Assembly (NCBI GenBank): GCA_002400905.2
Contig: NVRQ02000161.1
Location: forward strand, 1-45,431
Direction of reading: 5' to 3'
Source of the DNA: Gammaproteobacteria bacterium
GTDB taxonomy: Bacteria; Pseudomonadota; Gammaproteobacteria; GCA-2400775
DNA length: 45,431 nucleotides
Of this stretch, positions 3,633 through 45,431 are shown piece by piece. Below the pieces are notes generated by a model, which searched no databases, had not been told where the DNA came from, and was given only the letters and a program-made list of their open reading frames with translations. Positions within the stretch are counted from its first letter, which is position 1, and every line of letters starts with the position of its first letter. The position numbers and the translations under genes were made by a program.

Positions 3633-4999
3633 TCGATATGAATCAATCAACCGTACTTGTAGTTGAAGATGATAGTGACTTACGGGAAGCTCTGTGCGAT
3701 ACGCTTAGGTTGGCAGGTTATGAAGTCGAATCAGCTTGGGATGGTCGCTCGGCACTGGAAATTGTCAATCAACGTAAGGATGACCTTGGCTTAATTATTA
3801 GTGACATTCAGATGACACCGATGGATGGCGTATCGTTACTTAAGCGGGTACGACGTGTTTGTGCAGATATCCCCGTTTTGCTTATGACGGCATACGGGAC
3901 TATTGAGCAGGCGGTGTCAACCTTACGTGAAGGTGCAGCGGATTATATGGTGAAGCCGTTTGAAGCTAAAGTGCTCGTGAGTATGGTGAGTCGCTATATT
4001 ATCCAGCATGACGACACGTCAGATTTTATCTGTGCCGCAGTGTCCAGTAAAAAACTTGCTACCTTAGCGCGACGTGTTGCGCTAAGTGATGCGACTGTTT
4101 TAATTAGCGGTGAAAGTGGCACTGGTAAAGAAGTGATAGCGCGTTATATTCATGATAATTCAGCGCGCAATAAAGGTGTATTTGTCGCCATTAACTGTGC
4201 GGCCATCCCCGACAACATGTTAGAAGCGACATTGTTTGGTTATGAAAAGGGCGCTTTTACTGGTGCTTACAATGCCTCGCCAGGGAAGTTCGAGCAAGCG
4301 CAAGGTGGCACGTTATTACTGGATGAAATTTCAGAAATGAACATCTCTTTGCAAGCAAAAATATTAAGAGTTTTACAAGAGCGTGAAGTTGAACGCTTAG
4401 GTGGCAATAAGTTGATAGAGCTTGATGTTCGTGTCTTGGCAACGACAAATAGGAATCTAGCTGCCGAAGTTAAAAGTAATCGCTTCCGTGAAGATTTATT
4501 TTATCGCCTCAATGTATTTCCATTACAAATTGGCGCCTTACGCGAACGTAAGGAGGACATTCTTCCGCTTGCTGTAAGCTTTATTGAGCGTATTGCGATA
4601 CAACAATCACAAGCCATACCTGTGTTAACTAAGTCAGCTGAGGAGCATTTACTTAGTCATCCTTGGCCGGGCAACGTGCGTGAATTAGACAATGTCATTC
4701 AACGTGCAATGATATTGCAGCTTGGCGATGAAATTGAAGAAGACGATTTACAATTGACTTCATTTAATGGCTTTGAGACAAGCATCATGAGCAGTGTTGA
4801 GCAAACCCATGTTGATGCAGACAACTTGGCGCAAGACATGCTGGGGCATGAGCATAATCTCATCCTTGATGCATTGAGTAACGGTAACCGTAAACAAGCA
4901 GCAGAAAAATTGGGTATTAGCCAACGTACATTACGTTATAAATTAGCCAAAATGCGTGATTCTGGCATTGAAGTGCCACGACGCGCAGTATTGGTTTAA
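3629..4999 (+). CDS. fleR: Sigma-54-dependent response regulator FleR
   Basis: REC domain, AAA+ with GESGTGKE and GAFTGA, Fis-type HTH; overlaps the fleS end by 4 bp. Confidence 0.9.
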   Translation: MIDMNQSTVLVVEDDSDLREALCDTLRLAGYEVESAWDGRSALEIVNQRKDDLGLIISDIQMTPMDGVSLLKRVRRVCADIPVLLMTAYGTIEQAVSTLREGAADYMVKPFEAKVLVSMVSRYIIQHDDTSDFICAAVSSKKLATLARRVALSDATVLISGESGTGKEVIARYIHDNSARNKGVFVAINCAAIPDNMLEATLFGYEKGAFTGAYNASPGKFEQAQGGTLLLDEISEMNISLQAKILRVLQEREVERLGGNKLIELDVRVLATTNRNLAAEVKSNRFREDLFYRLNVFPLQIGALRERKEDILPLAVSFIERIAIQQSQAIPVLTKSAEEHLLSHPWPGNVRELDNVIQRAMILQLGDEIEEDDLQLTSFNGFETSIMSSVEQTHVDADNLAQDMLGHEHNLILDALSNGNRKQAAEKLGISQRTLRYKLAKMRDSGIEVPRRAVLV

Positions 5000-43873: not shown

Positions 43874-44271
43874 GTTTCGCCCTATGGGGGCGAGTTACTT
43901 TTGGGGTCAAAAGCACCAAAAACCCGGCTTCCACGCAGCCCTAAAGGATTTCCTTCGGTTACGCCTGGAAGGTCGCGAAAAACCATGCTAACACCCGAAG
44001 AGTGAGAGTTGGCGTACATTATTTTTTATTCTTATAGTTGTAAAACAACAGCAGCGGTGTATCAGATTATTTGTAATTGACCAGAGCATGAACATACTGG
44101 TTAGAAATCATAGTGTTAGCATGAAACTAAGGAAGAGGCGCATATTGCGACAACAGCAATAAGGTGATACAAAGCTGCTATGTATTTTTAACGTGATTAA
44201 TCACAGAAAAGGAGATAAACCGTTGATATCATGGGAAGATCAGGCATTTTATAATGCCCTGCGCGGAATGA

Positions 44272-44305
44272 TAAACAGCAGTAGTGTGATACACAGCTGC
44301 TGTAG
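44272..44305. repeat. Hairpin, one of three related AACAGCA...GTGATACA...AGCTGCT sequences
   Basis: AACAGCAGTAGTGTGATACACAGCTGCTGT; related sequences near 44045 and 44153. Confidence 0.5.
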
Positions 44306-44314
44306 AATAAACTG

Positions 44315-45000
44315 TTAGAGCCTCAAGGATAGAAAGTGAATAAGCTGATAGAACAATTTATTGCCAATTTAAGCGCAGGAGATATTTGGACTGGCTTCTT
44401 AATGCTGGCAATCTTCTATGTTTTAAAAAAAGAGCCCTTTAAGATATTTACCCATTTCAATGATCAGAAAATTAGAGATATCGATCAAGCAAAGTCACTA
44501 TTAGAAAGCGAAAAGTTAGGTAAGGAATCGAATGAATTACTGCGCGAGCATCTTGAGAGTTATGCTTTCAAAAGATACTATGGAATAACCGCAAATAGAG
44601 ATATGCGTACTGCTTTACTGAAGTTCTATCAAAAGCACCAAAACACAGTAGGCTGGCATGATCTAAAGCGGGCTGATTCATATATAAAACCGGATGGGTC
44701 GTCCATAAAAGTTGTGTTGTCGCTGGGTAGCCATATAGGGCGCTGGGCAGTAACTAGCTTAAGCTGGTTTATAGGCCTATATGCACTATTAATTATAGTT
44801 ATTGCTTTTATATCCAAGACCGACAATCAGGTTCAGTTCTTTGCTCTTACATTTTTATCAGTGGCTCTCTTAGTCGCGGCGATGTTGTTTAGTTCAATGA
44901 ATTGGCCGTATTATAGCGCTATCAAAATCCGTGATTGTGCCAATACAGCTCTAACAAAAAAATCAAGCCGACGCTGAAAAGCGCGCAGCTTATTTAGGCG
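44315..45000 (+). mobile_element. Integron-type gene cassette
   Basis: Starts at G^TTAGAGCC (44314/44315), ends at G^TTAGCTTCC (45000/45001). The R'' box GCTCTAAC is the reverse complement of its own GTTAGAGC start, as expected for a circularisable cassette. Confidence 0.75.
44336..44977 (+). CDS. Cassette-borne membrane protein of unknown function
   Basis: 213 aa, N-terminal TM and two C-terminal TM helices; GTG start; last codons and the TGA lie inside the attC-like site. Confidence 0.75.
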   Translation: MNKLIEQFIANLSAGDIWTGFLMLAIFYVLKKEPFKIFTHFNDQKIRDIDQAKSLLESEKLGKESNELLREHLESYAFKRYYGITANRDMRTALLKFYQKHQNTVGWHDLKRADSYIKPDGSSIKVVLSLGSHIGRWAVTSLSWFIGLYALLIIVIAFISKTDNQVQFFALTFLSVALLVAAMLFSSMNWPYYSAIKIRDCANTALTKKSSRR

Positions 45001-45006
45001 TTAGCT
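44948..45006 (+). other. attC-like recombination site
   Basis: GCTCTAAC-AAAAAAA-TCAAGCCGACGC-TGAAAA-GCGCGCAGCTTA-TTTAGGC-GTTAGC: R''-L''-loop-L'-R' architecture very close to classical 59-base elements. Confidence 0.8.
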
Positions 45007-45025
45007 TCCAAAAGCCGGAATCATA

Positions 45026-45349
45026 GTGGCCAGTAAAATTAGCGAAATCACCAGAAGAGATATCCTAGACTCTATTTTTCTAGAGCAGATCAACATGTAC
45101 GGTCGCCTTGGAGAAACTGAATTTCTCTCGCGAGTTTGGGATCTTGATTCTATGCCATCAACTGATGCCAGGTTTAGTAATGCAACCGGGGATATTTGGC
45201 AACACACCGTAAACAACGAAGACTGGGAACCTGGATGGGTCTTCTCGGATGCTAGGTTTAACCTAATGCGGGGAGATGATGAAACATTCCTAAGATTTCT
45301 TTCGCTGACCGCCAAGGAGAGCGAAGCGAAGGCGGTTAGTCGCCGATAG
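45026..45349 (+). pseudogene. Truncated AbiJ-NTD3-like protein
   Basis: ISEITRRDILDSIFLEQINMYGRLGETEFLSRVWDLDSMPSTDARFSNATGDIWQHTVNNEDWEPGWVFSDARFNLMRGDDETFLRFLS, then unrelated LTAKESEAKAVSRR*. Confidence 0.7.
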
Positions 45350-45424
45350 GCAACGCTGATTTATTTTTTCGTAATTGTGAGCGATAGCGAGCGATGGAGA
45401 AGAAAATAAACAGCTTTAGTTGCC
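45346..45424. mobile_element. MITE-like inverted repeat at the right window edge
   Basis: GGCAACGCTGATTTATTTTTTC vs GAAGAAAATAAACAGCTTTAGTTGCC (imperfect inverted repeat); left end resembles the fliE-fliF element end GGAACCTCTGATTTATTC. Confidence 0.55.
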
Positions 45425-45431
45425 GTAGAGC

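Follow-up and report, generated by a model that had tools for sequence, protein, structure and literature searches.

The window analysed here is a contig of 45,431 nucleotides (C70), and close to its 3' end lies what looks like an integron gene cassette with no integrase gene in sight; the question is how such a cassette came to be there. An integron is usually described as one attI site beside one integrase gene (intI), and cassette clusters that have no integrase are read as debris. The genome searched is a metagenome-assembled genome (MAG), 2.16 Mb spread over 180 contigs, with 90% completeness and a contamination value of 0. Contigs are given as C numbers (those of this genome, unless stated otherwise) and genomes as G numbers.

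The window reads GTTAGAGC at 44314-44321, and cassette 1 extends from 44315 to 45000 on the forward strand (686 bp). Its ends were set by the circular-cassette rule, by which the R'' box of the attC complements the cassette's own 5' end, and the R'' box GCTCTAAC (44948-44955) does so over 8/8 contiguous nucleotides. The first cassettes of C57, C108, C34, C167, C14 and G003:C20 follow the same rule over 8-10 contiguous nucleotides each. When the cassette starts were swapped between these seven loci (the window included) as a control, the match was 4-6 nucleotides in 65 of 68 tests and at least 7 in only 3. The 3' junction is GGCG^TTAGC, cut after G45000 and straddled by GGCGTTAGC, and the attC, delimited with a covariance model and a fold (44948-45006, forward strand), takes in the first bases of cassette 2. 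The covariance model was built on 16 attC sites, none of them the window site, from congeners and other genomes, and gave a single match in the whole 45-kb window (44949-45006, 27.1 bits, E 9e-5); the bottom strand of the circular form of cassette 1 forms the complete R/L hairpin (z -2.7). With an ORF and an attC, R'' complementarity, a covariance match and a bottom-strand fold, this is a genuine mobile integron gene cassette. An earlier note, made from the sequence alone, had described a complete cassette with attC at 44311-45010, an R'' box exactly complementary to the 5' end and a 213-aa ORF ending inside the attC; all of this is confirmed, and the covariance search and the fold are among the checks it had proposed.

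The ORF (44336-44977, forward strand) has a GTG start and a stop inside the attC, and encodes a predicted membrane protein of 213 aa. The earlier note recognised no family for it, and at the family level this still stands, as profile matches were sub-threshold only (SLATT_5 in Pfam, RTasSLATT in PADLOC); that it could be a SLATT-like membrane effector is a guess. An AlphaFold model (mean pLDDT 68.7, from a 2-sequence alignment) had no significant match in the PDB, and no match to the protein was found in plasmids, phages or viral contigs. A search of 369 genomes of the class adds a single clear homologue (37%, E 5e-45), which lies in another gammaproteobacterium in an array with 17 attC matches in 12 kb. 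As this homologue itself sits in a cassette array, the family travels on cassettes. The array (G149:C21, 1-12000) is a long one, in which the homologue lies among small membrane-protein cassettes.

Cassette 1 is followed by the start of cassette 2 (45001-45302, forward strand), whose gene begins at 45026, encodes AbiJ_NTD3 (E 8e-36) and is truncated. It is broken, together with the contig, by the end of a dispersed repeat of ~370 bp (45303-45431). This repeat (CGCTGACCGCCAAGG...GACACAATCG) occurs many times over the genome, on some twelve contigs (C3, C28, C1, C30, C153, C55 and others). An Rfam scan of the locus returned nothing beyond a chance snoRNA match.

For the setting of the cassette the earlier note had offered two options, an integrase-free cluster (CALIN) or the edge of an array. 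These are incomplete: the array does go on past the attC with cassette 2, but its left side is an orphan attI, a diverged copy of an attI module without intI. The copy (44042-44314, forward strand) ends at the G of the G^TT crossover. These 273 bp directly left of the cassette junction are an attI homologue, ~80% identical to the attI of C57, and the stretch 44041-44318 matches the intI-adjacent attI region on that contig at 81% identity over 278 bp. The attI core AATAAACTG^TTA (44306-44317, forward strand), with its crossover between 44314 and 44315, has no other match in the window (0.03 expected) and is common to the modules that keep their right end, and the window site is homologous to the intI-proximal one and shares its G^TT crossover. 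A leader ORF (44223-44318, forward strand) has a TTG start after the Shine-Dalgarno AAAAGGAGAT and runs for 31 codons to a TAG stop formed by the cassette junction. The alignment of modules places the left half-site of a palindromic motif at 44048-44064 (reverse strand; degenerate in the window) and the central palindrome at 44164-44188, its right arm degenerate in this copy; the right half-site, GATACACAGCTGCTGT, was located by motif search at 44288-44303 (forward strand). Among the copies that align well, that of the window diverges most (79-82%), and its central palindrome is degenerate, so that it may now be inactive, a slow or dead site. A comparison with related genomes, as the earlier note had proposed, showed no module after the HugZ orthologues (71-79%) of this locus in any of the four congeners.

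The window contains no intI, in keeping with the earlier note's statement that none lies upstream, and only one integron integrase in the MAG exceeded the curated cut-off (C57:1664-2599, 426 bits vs a cut-off of 265). A LexA-like box, CTGTATATTTATACAT, lies upstream of this gene, and the attI of C57 is the region between that box and the C57 cassettes. The genes after the C57 intI we take, from their sequences, to encode LexA and then an ImuA-like protein. About eight attI modules were found in the MAG, one with intI (C57) and seven without, beside unrelated genes. Further copies lie on C108, C167, C172 and C34, and two were joined by exact overlaps from contigs that end inside modules (C100+C91, 129 bp; C71+C14, 64 bp). 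Mutual identity among the copies is 68-94%, and their left flanks differ. Wherever the right end of a module is preserved, it reads ...AATAARCTGTTA and leads into a different cassette; first or second cassettes that are phage-defence-like include matches to PDC-S67 (C108) and UzuA (C34) in addition to AbiJ_NTD3 in the window. The C91/C100 module is a degenerate copy, truncated on the left in C100 and with a broken leader and an R'' match of 7/8 in C91. Module DNA had no match in plasmids, and the motif-core pattern had none in viral contigs.

At the orphan locus of C172, the attC of the first cassette holds a group II intron with reverse transcriptase/maturase and catalytic RNA domains (about 90-1950), which cuts R'' at CTCATAA. 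IIC-attC introns insert likewise, cutting the R'' of an attC.

A set of this kind could be produced if the MAG were an assembly or binning artefact, in which strains with one integron each had been mixed. In its favour, the assembly is fragmented, with contig ends inside modules on C14, C71, C91 and C100; against it stand the contamination value of 0, the position of the window module on a 45-kb contig whose HugZ has congener orthologues, the differing left flanks and the degree of divergence between copies, and the presence of orphan modules in three congeners as well. We regard an artefact as very improbable. It is established that IntI can also insert cassettes at attG sites, ordinary genomic positions for which a short core suffices (Loot 2024, as cited in PMC12444791), and the distance of the window cassette from intI would suit this. 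Such insertion predicts unrelated left flanks, however, whereas ~275 bp are shared by eight loci, the intI-adjacent attI among them, and the target in the window is not an ordinary one but has attI homology; attG insertion is a very improbable account of this locus.

A more serious rival is that each orphan once had its own intI, which was later deleted to leave the attI and a short array. CALINs have been proposed to be degraded integrons (PMC9024848), and the genus, in which five genomes were compared, offers two cases that would fit. The intI of G001 (G001:C7, 154-1143), whose product is 90% identical to the C57 IntI, is interrupted by an in-frame TAG, and at G003:C20 a LexA box has been kept beside a truncated transposase with no intI. 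Against decay, a common left edge, AAAACAACAGC, which lies upstream of the expected start of intI, recurs in six orphan copies, five of them from this genome and one from G001, with flanks that are otherwise unrelated. In this genome only the left-truncated C100 copy does not start its homology at that edge. Repeated deletion is unlikely, as all of the deletions would need to have hit the same base. Nor did tblastn with IntI find any remnant in up to 3 kb to the left of each orphan (~400 bp for C172 and C34). We consider decay unlikely, though it is the least improbable of the rival explanations. On C172, C34 and C167 the left edge is preceded by ~100 bp of additional shared sequence; this was considered as a separate insertion site and rejected, as it was never full-length at any module-free site.

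Intact modules are ~275 bp long with the attI core AATAARCTG^TTA. Their leader ORF, with its Shine-Dalgarno, TTG start and 31 codons to the junction, is in frame in 8/9 readable copies, and that of C14 lacks 18 nt without loss of frame. Of 21 pairs compared, 20 have dN<dS, and both other frames have stops. This is moderate evidence that the leader is translated, and only moderate because the sequences are short and related. The TTAG at the cassette start makes a TAG stop at the junction in the window, C57 and C108; elsewhere the leader ends in the 5' region of the first cassette, and in C34 it overlaps the ATG of that cassette as ATGA. A sigma-70 scan of the module did no better than shuffles, so that Pc could not be located, and the RNA fold of the leader was not significant (z -1.35). 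A palindromic motif, GTGATACAMAGCNGCTGTGTATCAC, stands at the module centre with half-sites at both ends, and the 16-mer GATACAMAGCNGCTGT occurs 11 times in the genome, always inside modules (0 for the reversed control). The half-site/palindrome/half-site layout of GTGATACACAGC-N-GCTGTGTATCAC occurs in each module (window 44048-44303) and nowhere else in the genome.

Another rival is that the module is a non-autonomous, MITE-like transposable element with an accidental capture core, beside one copy of which intI happens to lie. Its sharp edges, the inverted half-sites near both ends, a motif confined to modules and the REP-like repeats nearby would all agree with this. Yet in both G000 and G001 one copy occupies the place of attI next to intI, the modules contain a leader ORF and terminate precisely at the crossover, and neither a matching transposase nor a target duplication was identified. 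As an identity for the module it is very improbable; MITE-like transposition could be the mechanism by which the modules spread rather than an alternative to what they are. The sharp edges and the REP-like repeats that are often adjacent bear on this spread. Movement of the modules as cassettes, which would place a GTT at the left edge, was rejected since the left edges have no common GTT.

We favour the reading, at a probability of roughly two in three, that the window holds an orphan attI satellite, a duplicated module of ~275 bp with at least two cassettes, filled by the C57 IntI acting in trans; this is to be read with two of the eight modules joined from contig ends in a fragmented MAG, and with an in-frame TAG in the IntI of the congener G001. 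DNA damage would release expression of the C57 integrase through the SOS response, and the enzyme would then recombine the bottom strands of cassette attC sites into any attI module. The strong Shine-Dalgarno and the leader ORF of the module would lead ribosomes onto the first cassette in the manner of ORF-11 in attI1, and, as the leader runs through the crossover and stops at or just after it (G^TTAG giving TAG), each module, in which we infer promoter as well as leader function, would help to express its first gene. A wider reading, that of a distributed integron in which one SOS-controlled integrase serves dispersed, self-contained attI-plus-leader expression modules that spread along the chromosome as discrete units and make many first-position loci, is put forward tentatively, at somewhat less than even odds.

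Several known systems share parts of this arrangement. Sedentary chromosomal integrons also combine an IntI with a LexA box, an attI core, attC cassettes and a leader ORF overlapping attI, but in the window intI does not adjoin attI, as it would in a complete integron, and the genome has about eight attI copies for one intI. CALINs (PMC9024848, PMC12444791) likewise have cassettes with no nearby intI; the window differs in its recognisable attI module at the 5' end and, with one attC visible before the contig ends, lies below the IntegronFinder 2 default of at least two attC sites. The leader resembles ORF-11 of the class 1 attI1 (PMC8876359) in being a short ORF with a Shine-Dalgarno that crosses the crossover and takes its TAG stop from the cassette, but it has 31 codons vs 11, a TTG start, an unrelated sequence and dispersed copies. 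Delta-attI-type cassettes of class 1 and 2 also carry attI sequence away from intI, and the delta-attI2/attI2 core (AATAAAATGTT; AATAAAATGTTRRRY) resembles the module core AATAAACTGTT, AATAARCTG^TTA (PMC12901181). There, however, a fragment of attI takes the place of attC at the cassette's 3' end, whereas here entire modules precede ordinary cassettes, on their 5' side, at chromosomal loci and the window cassette has an ordinary attC of its own. Cassettes inserted at attG sites, as summarised from Loot 2024, also stand at chromosomal places remote from intI, but the target in the window is a shared 275-bp attI homologue and not a short degenerate core. The literature searched, which gave partial coverage, contained CALINs at several loci, attG insertion and delta-attI cassettes, and no case of dispersed whole attI modules in one genome.

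IntegronFinder detects attI only in class 1 (PMC9024848), so orphan attI sites would escape notice. Should attI modules multiply and be filled in trans, some CALINs would have been seeded rather than have decayed, and a single integrase could run many first-position expression sites. Under a distributed integron, new cassettes, several of them phage-defence-like, could take the first position, and be expressed, at many loci.

Orphan modules were also found in three congeners. G001 has two module copies, broken at contig ends; G003 (52% complete) has one module with two cassettes, and intI was not found in it; and G004:C147 carries a diverged module with the same layout and without intI. No module was found outside the genus in 51 genomes searched. 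In G004, most attC-bearing contigs break off at a contig edge, and a repeated cassette that also occurs in the C57 array is shared by several of them. They may thus come from a single array, or a small number of arrays, split during assembly, and were not counted as evidence of dispersal. A second type of attI-like module, around GATAACCCGA, was seen at G004:C10 (around position 3975 of the stretch) and G003:C45 (around 2300); its AATAAGCTGTTA core is interrupted at G003:C45 and kept at G004:C10, where it stands with no intI.
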